From Eggerthellaceae bacterium (lineage in GTDB: Bacteria > Actinomycetota > Coriobacteriia > Coriobacteriales > Eggerthellaceae): 64,000 nt of DNA. The translations under genes were made by a program, and so were the position numbers. The notes beneath the pieces were generated by a model that made no database searches, had not been told where the DNA came from, and was given only the letters and a program-made list of their open reading frames with translations. The stretch is taken from contig SUUI01000003.1 in NCBI GenBank assembly GCA_015062605.1, forward strand, positions 62,001-126,000, given 5' to 3'. Numbering within the stretch: the stretch's first letter is position 1; each line of letters starts with the position of its first letter. Positions 20,850 to 27,137 of this stretch are shown here, piece by piece.

Positions 20850-21692
20850 ATGGGTCTTACTGTTATCGAAGCTGAGTATGCGGGTGCATGCTACGGAGTG
20901 CAGCGTGCGCTTAATATGGCTGACGACACCATAAAACAGGCCATTCCCATTACCTCGCTCGGACCGCTGATTCACAATCCCATCGTTGTTGCCAAATACG
21001 AGCAAGCAGGAATCTCCATTGCTGAAGCGGTATCAGATATCAAGACTAAGTCGGTTCTGGTGCGAAGCCATGGCATTACTCCAAAGGTTCGCGAGCAGAT
21101 TGACGATGCTGGTTTGTCGGTCGTTGATGCAACATGTCCCTATGTCTTGCGTGCCCAGAAGGCAGCACAGCGCCTAGGAACCGAGCATGATATGCTCGTC
21201 ATCGTAGGGGAGAAGGGTCATCCAGAAGTCGATGCTCTCGAGGCATATGGCATGCTTTCGGGTACTACGGTCATGGTTGTTTCATGCGCTGATGAGCTTC
21301 CAGATACGCTTTCTGAGGTAGTAGGCGTGGTCGTACAGACGACGCAAACCTTCGATGCACTCGAAGATGTATTGGAAGGCATCCGCGAACGCGGAAGCGA
21401 AGCTGACCTCGCACATACGATTTGCCGAGCGACGCGTCAGCGTCAAGAGGCAGCATCCGAACTATCCAGGCGCGTTGATGCCATGGTTGTCATCGGGGGA
21501 CGTAATTCTGCGAATACCACGCGTCTTGCAGAAATATGCACTTCCGAGGGGGCGAAGACGTTCCATATCGAATCATGGGAGGAGCTCAGACCCGAATGGC
21601 TTGAGGGCTGCGAAACCGTTGGCGTGACTGCAGGTGCATCGACTCCCCAGTACCAAATCGATGAGGTCGTCGATACGCTTCGTGGATTCTAG
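20850..21692 (+). CDS. ispH: 4-hydroxy-3-methylbut-2-enyl diphosphate reductase
   Basis: A 280-residue [4Fe-4S] enzyme for the last step of the MEP isoprenoid pathway, giving IPP and DMAPP. The three cluster cysteines are recognisable: Cys14 (GACYGVQRA), Cys96 (DATCPYV) and Cys192 (HTICRAT), matching the family spacing. SHGITPKV, GEKGHPEV, TTQT and GGRNSANTTRL are also conserved. It starts two bases after plsC and ends this gene string; the following 140 bases hold the leader of the rimP operon. Confidence 0.95.
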   Translation: MGLTVIEAEYAGACYGVQRALNMADDTIKQAIPITSLGPLIHNPIVVAKYEQAGISIAEAVSDIKTKSVLVRSHGITPKVREQIDDAGLSVVDATCPYVLRAQKAAQRLGTEHDMLVIVGEKGHPEVDALEAYGMLSGTTVMVVSCADELPDTLSEVVGVVVQTTQTFDALEDVLEGIRERGSEADLAHTICRATRQRQEAASELSRRVDAMVVIGGRNSANTTRLAEICTSEGAKTFHIESWEELRPEWLEGCETVGVTAGASTPQYQIDEVVDTLRGF

Positions 21693-21831
21693 CGTCCAAT
21701 CCTTTCGCCGCATATTCGCGCGCGCACTGTGTAGCTTGTTTGTTTACACTAGCGCGCAAGCTACTTATATGGTATAAAGCTACCTGTAACGCACAATGAT
21801 GCGCTTGTTTTTGTGCAGTGGGTTACCGACA

Positions 21832-21876
21832 ACTTTCTAACCGTTTCAGAAAGTGGGTTCTTCCCGCTTTCTTTTT
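21832..21876 (+). promoter_or_regulatory. Attenuator-like leader of the rimP-nusA operon
   Basis: A terminator hairpin GAAAGTGGG (21849-21857) / CCCGCTTTC (21863-21871) followed by TTTTT (21872-21876) lies 20 bases before rimP. An alternative stem ACTTTCT (21832-21838) / AGAAAGT (21848-21854) uses the same bases, so both cannot form at once. A further hairpin GCACAA (21791-21796) / TTGTGC (21811-21816) lies upstream. A premature-terminator leader before rimP (rimP-leader) is known in other bacteria. Control by NusA is inference. Confidence 0.7.
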
Positions 21877-21896
21877 ATCTAGGGGAGGTGCGAAGC

Positions 21897-22370
21897 GTGC
21901 TGACGAAAACGGAACAGGGCTTGCTGAATGCGCTCGAAGCGCAGGCGGGCGAGCATGGTATAGAGATCGTAACGGTCGAAGTGACGGGTGCACGCAAATC
22001 CCCGACGATTCGCGTGTACATCGATTCGCCCAACGGCGTGAATTTTGATGAGCTCACGCGCTCCCAGAAATGGATAAATGAGCTCATGGATGAGCTCGAT
22101 CCGTTCCCCGGGGCCTATGTGCTCGAAGTTTCCTCGCCAGGCATCGATCGTCCGTTGCGCACGCCTGAGCATTTCAAACGCTTCATCGGCTCCACCGTTG
22201 TTGTAAGGGCGAGCGAAGCAGTAGACGGCCGTGCGAATTGGACGGCGACGCTTACGGCGGCGGACGATACAGGCATCACCGTGTGCGATGACGCCTCGAA
22301 CGAGGCGACCATACCATATGAGAAGATCAAGCGTGCCAACGTTAAGGGCATCATTGATTTCAGCAGATAA
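21897..22370 (+). CDS. rimP: Ribosome maturation factor RimP
   Basis: A 157-residue protein needed for 30S subunit maturation. GIEIVTVEVTG, the motif RVYIDSPNG and the C-terminal YVLEVSSPGIDRPL are conserved. GTG at 21897 has AGGGGAGG (21881-21888) at ideal spacing; the longer frame up to 21813 would run through the leader hairpin and is rejected. First gene of the rimP-nusA-ylxR-infB operon; 18 bases separate it from nusA. Confidence 0.95.
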   Translation: MLTKTEQGLLNALEAQAGEHGIEIVTVEVTGARKSPTIRVYIDSPNGVNFDELTRSQKWINELMDELDPFPGAYVLEVSSPGIDRPLRTPEHFKRFIGSTVVVRASEAVDGRANWTATLTAADDTGITVCDDASNEATIPYEKIKRANVKGIIDFSR

Positions 22371-22388: not shown

Positions 22389-23603
22389 GTGGCAACATCA
22401 GAATTGATCGAGGCATTGCAGGCACTTGCGCATGAGCGCAAGATCGACGAGTTTTATCTTATCGAGCGCCTTGAGGCCTCCCTCGCAAAGAGCTATCAGC
22501 ACATCTTGAATCTCGAATGGGATGCTCGCGTGACGATTGACCGCCAGACTGGTCACATCTACGTCTACGAACTTGTTCCCGTAGGCGATCCCGATCCTGA
22601 GACGGGCGAATTCACTGAGTTCGAAGAGCGCGACGTCACTCCGAACGATGTCAGCCGCATCGCCGCTCAGAACGCCAAGAGCGTTATCGCGTCCATCGTC
22701 CGCGAAGCTGGCCGTCAGTCGATCTTCGAGGAGTTCAGCGGCCGAGTGGGTGACTTGGTAACCGGTACCGTTTTGCAGGGCACGCCAGATTTCACGATCA
22801 TCAAGATCCGCGAGGGTGTTGAGGCCGAGCTTCCGCATTACGACGCAAGGAAGTATCCAGGCGAGCGCAACGAGCGTCCGAACGGCGAACGCTATAAGCA
22901 TAATCAGCGCTTGAAGGTGCTGATTATCGCAGTGCGCGATCCGAATTCCGATGAGCCGAAGACCCGTGGAGACCAAGCGCGTCCGTCTATTATCGTGTCC
23001 CGTACGCATCCCGACCTGATTCGCCGTTTGTTTGAGATCGAGGTTCCCGAGATCTATGACGGTCTCGTCGAGGTAAAGTCGATTGCCCGCGAGCCTGGTG
23101 CTCGTTCCAAGATCGCCGTCTACTCACGTGAGCAGAACCTTGATCCGGTTGGAGCTTGCGTTGGCCCGAAGGGCAGCCGCGTACGCATGGTCGTCGAGGA
23201 GCTCCGCAACGAGCGCGTCGACGTCATCCAATGGGATGACAATCCTGCGAAATATGTTGCCAATGCACTTTCCCCAGCACGTGTTACGAGGGTTTCTGTC
23301 GATGAGGCGAACCATTATGCGACGGTCATCGTTACCGACGATCAGCTTTCCCTCGCCATCGGCAAGGAAGGCCAAAACGCCCGTCTCGCCGCGAGGTTGA
23401 CGGGTTGGCACATCGACATCAAGAGCGCTTCGTTTGCAGGCGAGCCGCTCGATGAGAACATCCTCATCGATGAAGATGATGACAAGACCGAAGTCGATGC
23501 CGCATGCGCGTACGTGAGCGTTGACGGTGTTCGTTGCCGCAACCATGCACGTCCTGGAAGCAAGTACTGCGGTATCCATGCATCGTTGGAAGTCAGTCTG
23601 TAA
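22389..23603 (+). CDS. nusA: Transcription termination/antitermination factor NusA with C-terminal Cys/His motif
   Basis: A 404-residue NusA. Residues 1-115 are the RNA-polymerase-binding domain, followed by S1 (about 118-190) and two KH domains (about 200-350; GACVGPKGSRVRMVVEEL and LAIGKEGQNARLAARL). Beyond the KH core comes an acidic linker and a short tail with Cys373, Cys383, His386, Cys394 and His397. This could bind zinc and replaces the acidic repeats of proteobacterial NusA. Start is GTG at 22389 after GAAAGGAAAG. NusA governs pausing, termination and rRNA antitermination. Confidence 0.95.
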   Translation: MATSELIEALQALAHERKIDEFYLIERLEASLAKSYQHILNLEWDARVTIDRQTGHIYVYELVPVGDPDPETGEFTEFEERDVTPNDVSRIAAQNAKSVIASIVREAGRQSIFEEFSGRVGDLVTGTVLQGTPDFTIIKIREGVEAELPHYDARKYPGERNERPNGERYKHNQRLKVLIIAVRDPNSDEPKTRGDQARPSIIVSRTHPDLIRRLFEIEVPEIYDGLVEVKSIAREPGARSKIAVYSREQNLDPVGACVGPKGSRVRMVVEELRNERVDVIQWDDNPAKYVANALSPARVTRVSVDEANHYATVIVTDDQLSLAIGKEGQNARLAARLTGWHIDIKSASFAGEPLDENILIDEDDDKTEVDAACAYVSVDGVRCRNHARPGSKYCGIHASLEVSL

Positions 23604-23612
23604 GGGGTTTTC

Positions 23613-23894
23613 GTGGGTCGCTCGAGCCATACACCGCAACGTCGCTGCGCTTCCTGCGGAAATACCGCGGCGAAAGGCGAGATGCTCCGCATCATGCGTG
23701 TTTTGCATGGTGACGAACCTGCATCCATTGAAATCGACGTGACTGGTCGTGGAGCCGGTCGCGGGGTGTATGTGTGCAGTGCGGAGTGTCTCGAGAAGGC
23801 AGTGAAGTCACGGCTTTTCGAGCGTGCTTTGAAAATGAAGATAGATGCTGATGCGTATGACCGCATCAGAGAACAGGGCTTACAGCTCTTATAA
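23613..23894 (+). CDS. ylxR: YlxR family RNA-binding protein
   Basis: A 93-residue DUF448/YlxR protein. RRCASCG, the GRGAGRGVYVC segment and the helical C-terminus are characteristic; two Cys pairs (CASC and CSAEC) are visible. B. subtilis YlxR has been linked to RNase P and to transcription control. Start is GTG at 23613, ten bases after nusA. The gene always sits between nusA and infB, as here. Confidence 0.93.
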   Translation: MGRSSHTPQRRCASCGNTAAKGEMLRIMRVLHGDEPASIEIDVTGRGAGRGVYVCSAECLEKAVKSRLFERALKMKIDADAYDRIREQGLQLL

Positions 23895-23919
23895 CTTCGA
23901 CCGGTTGAAGGAGAAACAT

Positions 23920-26700
23920 ATGGCCGGAATGCGTGTTCATGAGCTAGCAAAAGAATTCGGTATGACGAGCAAGGAACTGCTCGATCGTCTGATCGAGATG
24001 AAGATTCCTGCGAAAAGCCATGCCAGTATGCTCGCGGATGCCTACGTAAACAAAATTAGGAAGAACTTAGAGCCGGAGATCAAGCAGCGCACGGGCAAGC
24101 TTGATGACGAAGAGGCCAAGAAGCTTCAGCAGCAGAAAGATGAGGCTGAGGCGAAGAAGGCCGAAGAAGCGAAAGCGCGCCGCGCCGCAGTCGAGGCAGA
24201 GCTTAAGGCTCGCGAGGCGGAGCGTGCACGCAGGACAGGTGTTCCTCCCGTTCAAGAGGCCGCACGTCCTGCTGAGAAGGAACAGCAGCAGAAGCGTCCT
24301 GTTGTGAAGCAGGAAGCCCCCTCGCTGTTCGCAAGCTTGGCAGAGCAGATTCAGAACGAGAAAGAACGTGTCGAGCGTGAACGCGCTGAGGCAGAGCAGC
24401 GCGCACGGGAGGCTCAGAACGCCCAAGAAGTCGCCAAGAAGAAGGCCGTTGAGGAGTCGTTGCGCAATCGTGCAGGAAAGAAGACCCCTAAGCCGATCGC
24501 TTCCGAAGCAGATACCATCGTAGAAGAGCCCGAGAAGAAGCCCGCGCCGGTCATCACTGCAAAGCCTGCGGCTAAATTCGATTCGCTTCTTTCGCAAATC
24601 GAAGCGGAGCAGAACCGCCTTAAGGCTCAGAAGGAACAGGTTGCCCAACCACAAGGCAAGGGCAAGAAGAAGGGTAAGAAGTCAGGCCAGTATCAGTTCG
24701 AGCCTTCCGTTCCCGAGCTTGAGCAGCAGATGCAGCAGGACAAGGGCGAGGATCGTTATGCTCAAATGGCCGTCCAAGCGGAGAAACTGCAGCGTGATAA
24801 GGTGCTTGCGGAAGCCCGTGCAGTTGTAGCTGCTGCCTCTCATGAAGGCGAAGGACGTCGCAAGAAGCGTAAGGAGAAGCGTCAGGCTGAGGCGCGTGAG
24901 CGCGCTGAGGCTCAAGCTATCGAGCGCGGAATCGATCCGAGTTTGGTGCTTGATTCCTCCACGATCGAGGTTCCGCAAGGATCATCTGCCTCCAAGCTCG
25001 CTGAACTACTCGGCGTGCAACCGAACGAGATCATCAAGCGTTTGTTCATGCTCGGCACGGTGCTCACGCTGACACAATCCATGAGCGATGATCTTATCGA
25101 GCTCGTTGCAGACGACTTGGGGCGTAAGGTCCGCGTCGTTTCGCCAGAAGAGGAATATGCCGTTGTCTACCATGATTCCGACGATGACCTCAAGCCTCGT
25201 CCTCCCGTTGTCACTGTCATGGGCCATGTCGACCATGGCAAGACCTCTCTGCTAGATGCGATTCGCCATACGGGTGTTGCAGCAGGCGAGTCTGGTGGCA
25301 TAACCCAGCATATCGGCGCATCGGTTGTCGAGATCGATGATCGTCGCATTACGTTCATCGATACTCCTGGTCATGAGGCATTCACCGCTATGCGTGCCCG
25401 TGGAGCTCAGGTCACCGATGTCATCGTTTTGGTTGTTGCAGCCGATGACGGAGTCATGCCGCAGACTATTGAGGCTATCAATCATGCAAAGGCTGCCGAA
25501 GTGCCGATTGTCGTGGCAGTTAACAAGATCGATAAGAATGGTGCGAATCCCGAGCGAGTTCGCCATGAACTCGTTGAATACGGTGTCATCCCAGAGGAAT
25601 GGGGTGGCAACAACATGTTCGTCGATGTCTCTGCAAAGCAGAAGCTCCATATCGACGATTTGCTCGAGACGATCCTTTTACAGGCTGACGTCCTTGAATT
25701 AAGGGCGAATCCCGATGCGCTTGCTAGCGGCTTCGTCATCGAATCGAATCTCGATAAGGGTCGCGGTCCGGTCGCTACGGTTCTGGTGCAACGCGGTACC
25801 CTGCATACGGGAGACGCTGTTGTTGCCGGCATGAGCCATGGTCGCGTCCGTGCGCTCGTCGATCCGAAGGGCAAGCATGTCAAATCCGCTGGACCTGCGG
25901 ATCCTGTTGAGATCGTCGGCCTGAGTAGCGTTCCGACCGCGGGCGACGAATTCAGGGTCTTCGAGGACGAGCGTGATGCACGAAAGCTTGCTGAAGAGCG
26001 CGCATTGCGTGCCCGCCTCGCAGAGCAAGAAGTTAAGTCCCATATGAGCTTAGACGATCTGTTCAGCCGCATCGAGGCTGGCAAGCAGACCGACTTGAAC
26101 CTCATCGTGAAGGCAGACGTGATGGGCTCCATCGAGGCGTTGCGCGATTCCTTCAACAAGATGGATCAGTCCGAAGTCAAGATCAACATCGTCCATTCTG
26201 CCGTCGGTGGCATCACCGAGACCGACGTCACGCTTGCTGCAGCATCCGATGCAATCATCATCGGCTTCAACGTTCGTCCGACGGGCAAATCCCGCCAACA
26301 GGCTGAAAAGGAACATGTCGACATTCGCTTGTACCGTGTCATCTACCAGGCTATCGAGGATATCAACGCTGCACGCGTCGGTCTCCTCTCGCCCGATATC
26401 GTTGAGGAAGACACAGGTGTTGCAGAGGTTCGTGAGACCTTCAAGGTTCCCAAAGTCGGAACGGTTGCTGGCTGCTACATCACCGAAGGCGAGATCAGCC
26501 GTGATGACAAGGTCCGTATCGTTCGCGACGGCATGGTCATCTTCGAGGGCTCTATTGCTTCGCTCAAACGCTTCAAGGACGATGTCAAGAGCGTCAAGCA
26601 GAGCTATGAATGCGGCATCACCATCTCTGGTTACCAGGACATCAAGGTAGGCGATACCATCGAGGGTTACACCATCAAGGAAGTACAACGCACCGAGTAA
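23920..26700 (+). CDS. infB: Translation initiation factor IF-2
   Basis: A 926-residue GTPase that places initiator tRNA on the 30S subunit. The N-terminal MRVHELAKEFGMTSKELLDR is an IF2_N domain; residues about 55-330 are a long Lys/Glu/Ala/Gln-rich, low-complexity helical region; a second IF2_N follows; the GTPase domain has GHVDHGKT near residue 434 with DTPGHE and NKID. The four C-terminal domains are complete. ATG at 23920 with GAAGGAG (23907-23913) is chosen over the longer frame that overlaps ylxR. Confidence 0.97.
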   Translation: MAGMRVHELAKEFGMTSKELLDRLIEMKIPAKSHASMLADAYVNKIRKNLEPEIKQRTGKLDDEEAKKLQQQKDEAEAKKAEEAKARRAAVEAELKAREAERARRTGVPPVQEAARPAEKEQQQKRPVVKQEAPSLFASLAEQIQNEKERVERERAEAEQRAREAQNAQEVAKKKAVEESLRNRAGKKTPKPIASEADTIVEEPEKKPAPVITAKPAAKFDSLLSQIEAEQNRLKAQKEQVAQPQGKGKKKGKKSGQYQFEPSVPELEQQMQQDKGEDRYAQMAVQAEKLQRDKVLAEARAVVAAASHEGEGRRKKRKEKRQAEARERAEAQAIERGIDPSLVLDSSTIEVPQGSSASKLAELLGVQPNEIIKRLFMLGTVLTLTQSMSDDLIELVADDLGRKVRVVSPEEEYAVVYHDSDDDLKPRPPVVTVMGHVDHGKTSLLDAIRHTGVAAGESGGITQHIGASVVEIDDRRITFIDTPGHEAFTAMRARGAQVTDVIVLVVAADDGVMPQTIEAINHAKAAEVPIVVAVNKIDKNGANPERVRHELVEYGVIPEEWGGNNMFVDVSAKQKLHIDDLLETILLQADVLELRANPDALASGFVIESNLDKGRGPVATVLVQRGTLHTGDAVVAGMSHGRVRALVDPKGKHVKSAGPADPVEIVGLSSVPTAGDEFRVFEDERDARKLAEERALRARLAEQEVKSHMSLDDLFSRIEAGKQTDLNLIVKADVMGSIEALRDSFNKMDQSEVKINIVHSAVGGITETDVTLAAASDAIIIGFNVRPTGKSRQQAEKEHVDIRLYRVIYQAIEDINAARVGLLSPDIVEEDTGVAEVRETFKVPKVGTVAGCYITEGEISRDDKVRIVRDGMVIFEGSIASLKRFKDDVKSVKQSYECGITISGYQDIKVGDTIEGYTIKEVQRTE

Positions 26701-26735
26701 GTGCGTATAAAAGACGCGTTTATGATAGGAAGCAG

Positions 26736-27137
26736 ATGAAGCAGAGTTCTGCAAATAGAAAAGTGAACGAGCAGGCGCGCGAGGTCATCGCGAGCATCCT
26801 TTTGTTCGATATCGCTGATCCGAGGCTTCGCCTCGTTACCATCACCGGTTGCGAGGTCAGTTATGATAGAAGCGCATGCAACGTCTTTTACACGACCGAT
26901 GCGAAACGCTACGATGAGGTCGCAGAGGCGTTTGGGAAGGCTTCCGGCCGTATCCGTTCGCTTATGGCAAAGCAGCTTTCGTGGCGCGTGGCACCCGAAC
27001 TGCGCTTTATGTTGGACACTTCCGTCGATCAGGCGCAACGCATTGCCGATGCGCTTGCAGCCGATGCAGAGGCGATTGCTCGCATCGAAGAAGCGAATGC
27101 GATGGCAGATGAAGCGGCAGACGAGGCTGCGCTGTAA
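26736..27137 (+). CDS. rbfA: Ribosome-binding factor A
   Basis: A 133-residue KH-like protein that binds 16S rRNA helix 1 during 30S maturation. The N-terminal KVNEQAREVIASILLFDIADPRL, a type of KH start, and the later LSWRVAPELRFMLD are conserved; the tail is Ala/Glu/Asp-rich. ATG at 26736 follows ATAGGAAG. 35 bases separate it from infB. Confidence 0.94.
   Translation: MKQSSANRKVNEQAREVIASILLFDIADPRLRLVTITGCEVSYDRSACNVFYTTDAKRYDEVAEAFGKASGRIRSLMAKQLSWRVAPELRFMLDTSVDQAQRIADALAADAEAIARIEEANAMADEAADEAAL

Follow-up and report, generated by a model that had tools for sequence, protein, structure and literature searches.

It has long been asked how NusA adjusts its own abundance. E. coli NusA controls its own operon, according to work cited in PMC2965389 and PMC4448216, B. 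subtilis NusA autoregulates by attenuation (Mondal 2016, as told in PMC12288461), and NusA feedback has been suggested for the rimP-nusA leader of S. agalactiae (PMC4448216). The closest described element is the rimP-leader of Naville and Gautheret (2010, PMC2965389), a GGG...CCC terminator located before rimP, the gene that ranks first in that study among those with predicted attenuators. In the accessible text of the paper the general form has no visible antiterminator, and most of its description amounts to a terminator alone, with no second state to be seen, some Gammaproteobacteria excepted.

The leader analyzed here comes from an Eggerthellaceae genome and lies in a 64-kb window (the whole stretch of 64,000 nucleotides under study, part of a 1.7-Mb assembly). 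Like the rimP-leader, it has a terminator in the 5′ UTR of rimP-nusA-infB, with a GGG...CCC stem near the ribosome-binding site and NusA as the proposed regulator; unlike the form described in the accessible text of PMC2965389, it has a conserved arm that competes for the 5′ strand of the terminator, and a hairpin precedes. Judged by sequence, the terminator is placed in the rimP-nusA-infB leader 25 nt from the start codon (21871 to the GTG), within the 4-130 nt described for rimP-leaders, and the distance to the start of the RimP match is 23-117 nt in 89 of 90 family leaders and 263 nt in one. Where the published pattern reads GGGc(...)gCCC, the window has GGG...CCC with u/u in place of the inner c/g (GGGUUCUUCCC); in the family, C follows GGG in 62 of 86 readable leaders and G precedes CCC in 13 of 86. 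The Rfam family RF01770 ('rimP', a 102-position model) shares the gene name and has no match at the leader, its best match in the same genome being on another contig with 23.5 bits against a gathering score of 47. Other Rfam candidates for the leader were rejected, including an S15 leader match of 14.3 bits (gathering score 39.5).

The gammaproteobacterial tandem rimP-leader also has a potential antiterminator, but there the accessible text describes a second upstream terminator with the inverse CCCg...cGGG, whereas here one terminator is combined with a short arm (PMC2965389). B. subtilis nusA is the same gene, and the logic proposed for it is the same; the accessible text mentions no competing arm (PMC12288461), and NusA dependence of the Eggerthellaceae leader would follow by analogy with that system. 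The S. agalactiae rimP-nusA operon is likewise preceded by an intrinsic terminator that yields a short leader RNA. According to the available portion of PMC4448216 that RNA stops 31 nt after its start and therefore leaves little room for an upstream hairpin and an arm, whereas the leader described here would run for about 87 nt before the U-run, counted from its inferred start. Among the publications that literature searches listed, few of them subscription papers, no title or abstract opening describes the leader in Coriobacteriia, and neither the close-range arm nor the preceding hairpin of variable sequence was found described; PMC7247131 mentions neither rimP nor nusA. The sequence-only reading had stated that related leaders are known in other phyla, which is borne out for the terminator and, so far as the published text goes, only for some Gammaproteobacteria where an antiterminator is concerned. 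The terminator belongs to the widespread rimP-leader type already described, and the close-range arm together with the preceding hairpin appears, among the papers searched, to be what is new.

The rimP leader and its overlapping helices

The gap between ispH and rimP is 204 nt, and all leader elements fall within it (Table 1). The genes rimP, nusA, ylxR, infB and rbfA presumably form one transcription unit.

Table 1. Features of the rimP leader and neighboring genes, in window positions
Feature	Position	Strand	Basis or remark
ispH	20850-21692	+	upstream neighbor of the leader
Extended -10 promoter element TATGGTATAAA (putative)	21768-21778	+	sequence; family comparison
5′ hairpin P1 (GUAAC...GUUAC outer stem)	21786-21826	+	whole-leader fold
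Competing arm ACUUUCU (putative antiterminator 5′ strand)	21832-21838	+	family comparison
Shared strand AGAAAGU	21848-21854	+	pairs with 21832-21838 or with the terminator 3′ strand
Intrinsic terminator stem-loop (predicted)	21848-21872	+	scan and fold; family comparison; U-G wobble 21854/21866
Terminator U-run, then A	21872-21876	+	sequence and scan
Ribosome-binding site AGGGGAGG of rimP (predicted)	21881-21888	+	sequence; directly 3′ of the terminator
rimP, first gene of the presumed controlled operon	21897-22370	+	PF02576 2.3e-17, PF17384 3.9e-17; GTG start at 21897
nusA, presumed feedback regulator	22389-23603	+	TIGR01953 2.3e-94, above cut-off; NusA_N and NusA-like KH
ylxR, infB, rbfA, rest of the presumed operon	23613-27137	+	Pfam YlxR, IF-2, RBFA

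The terminator is formed by the 5′ strand GAAAGTGGG at 21849-21857 (or AGAAAGTGGG, counting from 21848), a loop at 21858-21862 and the 3′ strand CCCGCTTTCT at 21863-21872. Its hairpin (21841-21876) has a predicted energy of -14.9 kcal/mol with a z-score of -4.83, and 0 of 200 shuffles equal it; a simple terminator scan over 4 kb gave 2 sites versus 3.7 expected. Within three substitutions or fewer, the pattern GAAAGTGGG-N-CCCGCTTTC is present in 86 of 90 family leaders, and the U-G wobble is carried by 85 of the 86 family leaders readable with a wobble regular expression. The U-run is broken after 2-7 U in the 88 of 90 family leaders that are readable by regular expression, and after 3-5 U in 77 of the 88. 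The wobble may keep the terminator weak. In one leader, L074 (genus g34), the terminator-like hairpin has a different stem, GAGCAGGC...GCCCGCTT, and two tRNA genes lie on the opposite strand upstream of rimP.

The arm and the terminator compete for the same bases. The alternative stem, ACTTTCT at 21832-21838 with AGAAAGT at 21848-21854, is exact, and six bases (21849-21854) are common to it and the terminator; for both helices the coordinates of the sequence-only reading were right to the base. Taken alone, the alternative stem is unremarkable, since 79 of 200 shuffles of 21825-21857 fold equally well, and in the window a helix of its length (7 bp) has p = 0.32 among shuffles under a permissive null that counts G-U pairs. 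Single-sequence statistics are therefore not significant for this stem, and it is the comparison between genomes alone that makes it convincing.

Upstream of the arm, the extended -10 element suggests a transcription start near 21785. With one mismatch or none, the element recurs in 48 of the 90 family leaders at a distance of 19-53 nt upstream of the arm, or of the position assumed for it, and a scan for sigma-70 hexamer pairs found none at the promoter position of the leader. An inverted repeat, GTAGCTTG...CAAGCTAC, lies at 21731-21764, upstream of the -10 element; as a candidate operator or ispH terminator it was rejected, not being conserved in a genome of the same genus (L004).

P1 is a separate hairpin of variable sequence close to the inferred transcript start. 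A hairpin at 21791-21816, which had been thought able to join the switch, appears when 21781-21820 is folded alone, and in the whole leader it gives way to the longer P1 with different inner pairs. Because P1 has no base in common with the arm or the terminator in the window, it falls outside the proposed base exchange, and this part of the earlier proposal is not upheld. Across the 90 leaders the stretch from the -10 match to the arm is more stable than its mononucleotide shuffles (mean z -1.86; below -1 in 69 of 90), where the -10 match was placed loosely with up to four substitutions (none found in 5 of 90 leaders) and leaders without room between match and arm were entered as z = 0. This folding potential notwithstanding, the sequence of P1 differs between genera. 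P1 may secure the 5′ end, or it may prevent upstream sequence from pairing with the arm.

Conservation of the competing arm in the family

RimP is present in 127 of the 138 genomes of the family, and 90 leaders from 46 genera were read, with 37 left out. An in-register arm, ACU(3-5)C or a one-base variant of it, lies within 32 nt upstream of the terminator strand in 82 of the 90 leaders; the regular expression accepted 83, and L068 was removed as an artefact of the pattern. The first base of the arm is replaced in 3 of the 82 (by G in two and T in one). For each length of arm, three T in 58 leaders, four in 13 and five in 11, the partner strand G[AG]nGT stands in the corresponding register in 82 of 82, and 81 arms are fully paired including the outermost pair when G-U is allowed, L023 being the exception. 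These counts contradict the explanation of the alternative stem as chance complementarity, to which the 32% of shuffles that match the window stem would otherwise lend some weight: with the arm in register in 82 of the 90 leaders, and these 82 drawn from 41 genera, that account is scarcely credible.

Arm length and partner strand vary together. Among four-T arms the G needed one position further out is in place in 6 of 6 genera, versus 10 of 33 for three-T arms (Fisher p 0.0025, a value that ignores descent). When arms were shuffled among the 41 genera, full fits averaged 35.1 against 40.8 observed, and 0 of 5000 shuffles reached the observed number, again with descent ignored. On a RimP plus NusA tree of 54 genomes, 50 of them from the family of the window, the labels three, four, five and none require at least 12 changes, and arm length has therefore changed several times; a tree-based independent-pairs test finds 2-3 pairs on supported branches, a number too small for a decision either way.

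The sister family (f9, two genomes) provides the two-sided change. The helix is ACUUUC/GAAAGU in the family of the window, GCUUUC/GAAAGU in one f9 genome and GCUUUC/GAAAGC in the other, so A-U, G-U and G-C all occur as the outer pair of the arm helix. The shared base takes part in a U-G pair in the terminator for the family of the window, in a U-A pair in L134 and in a C-G pair in L135. The sequence-only reading had proposed mutually exclusive hairpins before rimP-nusA, to be abandoned if relatives showed no compensatory changes; such a change is present in f9, and both helices share a strand and stay conserved, as the 82 of 90 leaders in register and the shuffling result indicate. Mutually exclusive pairing before rimP-nusA is thereby supported at the level of sequence comparison.

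The arm is absent from eight of the 90 leaders (L008, L020, L043, L044, L068, L074, L075 and L088), which keep a terminator-like hairpin. L043 and L044 are armless though L045 and L046 of the same genus keep the arm. The family thus offers a natural set of long-arm, short-arm and armless leaders for measuring the part played by the competing helix, and Eggerthella lenta, one member of the group, is reported in the accessible literature to be now transformable, with shuttle vectors and a lacZ reporter available.

Pairing is not the only conserved property of the arm. A G directly follows it in 66 of 82 leaders, despite the location of this base in the loop, so that sequence is kept as well as pairing. 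This is what would be expected if the leader were a plain NusA-dependent rimP-leader terminator in which ACUUUC is retained as a single-stranded binding site for a protein, either the KH domains of NusA or another factor, with pairing secondary. One archaeal NusA reportedly binds CU-rich RNA close to a stop signal, which would favor such a site, and NusA bound to ACUUUC would free GAAAGU for the terminator. However, arm length co-varies with the partner strand and f9 alters both sides, neither of which a binding site alone needs, and the conserved G together with the last loop base beside it, A in 42 of 82 leaders and G in 13 of 82, may form a stabilizing mismatch. We regard a binding site as the main function of the arm as unlikely.

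Association with rimP and distribution beyond the family

The exact pattern of arm, gap and terminator occurs in at least 61 stretches in a collection of genomes of 84,980 species, once per stretch. The number is a lower bound, as L010, L014 and L025 hold the exact pattern and have no record among the 61. In 60 of the 61 stretches rimP begins 23-260 nt downstream of the switch, and in the remaining one the contig ends after 122 nt. Carriers are named Eggerthellaceae, Eggerthellales, Adlercreutzia, Gordonibacter or Eggerthella, or only Coriobacteriia, Coriobacteriales, Coriobacteriaceae or 'Bacterium', and no organism named outside Coriobacteriia is found among the 61. A plasmid-borne copy of the switch was also sought, with no match found.

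In the window the hairpin follows ispH at a distance of about 155 nt, in the same orientation, and could be taken as merely the terminator of an upstream ispH operon. The relatives contradict this: of 52 stretches with 1000 nt of upstream DNA only one has ispH upstream, and therefore the switch goes with rimP, directly before which it stands in 60 of 61 cases. In addition, ispH and the hairpin are separated by the -10 element that 48 of 90 leaders share. An ispH terminator is accordingly a very improbable account of the element.

A wider comparison separates the history of the terminator from that of the arm. At the level of the order we used 40 leaders from other families (L131 was too short); among the matches listed, family f2 is not represented, and f4 and f10 are represented only in part. 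The strict terminator pattern is present in 28 of the 40, with 25 U-G, 2 U-A and 1 C-G at the shared position, and several of the other 12 have visibly longer-looped or different hairpins. In other orders of the class 17 of 20 leaders have the strict pattern, and all 17 have U-G. Elsewhere in the phylum it is present in 8 of 20, all U-A, and a looser pattern, GTGGG...CCC(A/G)C, is present in 13 of 20, with 11 U-A and 2 U-G (L246 and L248). The terminator is therefore ancient and broadly distributed, and the wobble is characteristic of the class without being unique to it.

The close-range arm, for its part, is seen in the family of the window and in f9. An ACTnC-like stretch within 36 nt occurs in 4 of the 28 order-level leaders, two of the four being from f9, and one leader from the other orders has an ACTTC stretch. 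Since 8 of 90 family leaders are armless and only 1 of 17 readable leaders from the rest of the class has an ACTnC-like stretch, the arm is dispensable for basic control.

Candidates for a more distant competitor are found in two further families. In 5 of the 11 f5 leaders tested (L122, L123, L125, L129 and L130) a GUUU-rich stretch located 37-40 nt upstream can form 6-10 pairs, G-U included, with the strand of the terminator; what these five have in common is GG-UUUC(U)UG-like and would pair over a long loop. Three f6 leaders (L137, L138 and L140) have GCUUUC 40-45 nt upstream. Single-sequence shuffle p values for these long-range candidates range from 0.01 to 0.34, and they are leads only. 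The f5 stretch is possibly a long-range form of the same competitor, and the competitor may be older than the family of the window. Five of seven f6 rimP leaders also contain a near-fixed, hairpin-like stretch upstream of the terminator, GGCCACGGTATGGCTTTC-(TAC or AA)-GCCGCCGT, with CUUUC in or beside its loop, for which Rfam has no match above gathering score. In L261-L265 it lies about 54 to 25 nt before AAGTGGG, and L137-L140 belong to the same observation.

A proposed timing switch for rimP-nusA

An RNA on/off choice built into the leader probably governs the operon that encodes the termination factor NusA. We favor, with moderate confidence, a reading in which the leader is a NusA-sensitive attenuator of the rimP-nusA-infB operon and the arm delays formation of the terminator. 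RNA polymerase would start near 21785, and P1 would be made first, followed by the arm ACUUUC as a single strand and by GAAAGUGGG. GAAAGU would be taken by the arm first because the stem of the arm is complete before the right strand of the terminator leaves the polymerase. The terminator would displace the arm, beginning at the GGG/CCC top, as the polymerase crosses the short, interrupted U-run. Slow displacement would make read-through into rimP the default, while pausing, or NusA aiding the terminator hairpin, would stop transcription. Plentiful NusA would consequently turn the operon down and scarce NusA would turn it up.

A simple folding model is compatible with this order of events, and the predicted energies limit what the arm can do. 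As drawn, the arm stem averages -4.1 kcal/mol over the 82 leaders, compared with -15.1 for the terminator; the arm stem is weak, and therefore the terminator wins at equilibrium and the arm can delay it, not prevent it. In a stepwise fold of the window RNA, with an assumed polymerase footprint hiding 11 nt and real kinetics ignored, P1 is predicted first; the arm stem is added once the 3′ end reaches about 21864, and a GGG/CCC mini-hairpin when it stands at 21876-21878. The arm stem persists in this model to a 3′ end of about 21878, and the terminator is predicted from 21880 on, beyond the U-run. The weak arm stem, the U-G wobble and the short broken U-runs thus lead us to interpret the leader as a switch that works by timing.

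B. subtilis terminators need NusA when their hairpins are weak and their U-runs interrupted, according to the accessible text of PMC12288461, and the wobble and broken U-runs of the family leaders would fit this class of weak, NusA-requiring terminators. By analogy, control by NusA of its own operon is likely for the Eggerthellaceae leader.

The consensus pause pattern is G-10, Y-1, G+1. ACUUUC/GAAAGU might act mainly as a pause hairpin 11 nt before C21865|G21866, a site with this pattern, with NusA lengthening the pause. Of 86 readable family leaders, 84 have a spacing of 10-13 nt and 82 have G at -10, and NusA-stimulated pauses in B. subtilis are reported to have putative hairpins 10-13 nt upstream; two-thirds of such pauses in its 5′ leaders lie upstream of known attenuators (PMC12288461, accessible text). 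However, it is the terminator that dictates the spacing and the G and C runs, which persist in armless leaders, and therefore they do not count as independent evidence for a pause. A helix that serves mainly for pausing appears quite unlikely to us. We also regard as rather unlikely a double role, in which ACUUUC/GAAAGU would be antiterminator and NusA-stimulated pause hairpin in one, with the pause located 11 nt further on, at CCC|G within the right strand of the terminator. If it were true, the moment at which GAAAGU passes from the arm to the terminator would be set by the polymerase, with NusA or without it, and the leader would measure NusA directly, without a ligand or another protein.

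A separate observation concerns the C-terminus of the encoded NusA (about 23500-23600), where a Cys/His-rich tail can be read by eye as C-x9-C-x2-H-x7-C-x2-H; it has a weak, sub-threshold match to the CCCH zinc finger PF11722, with 17.9 bits against a cut-off of 20.9.
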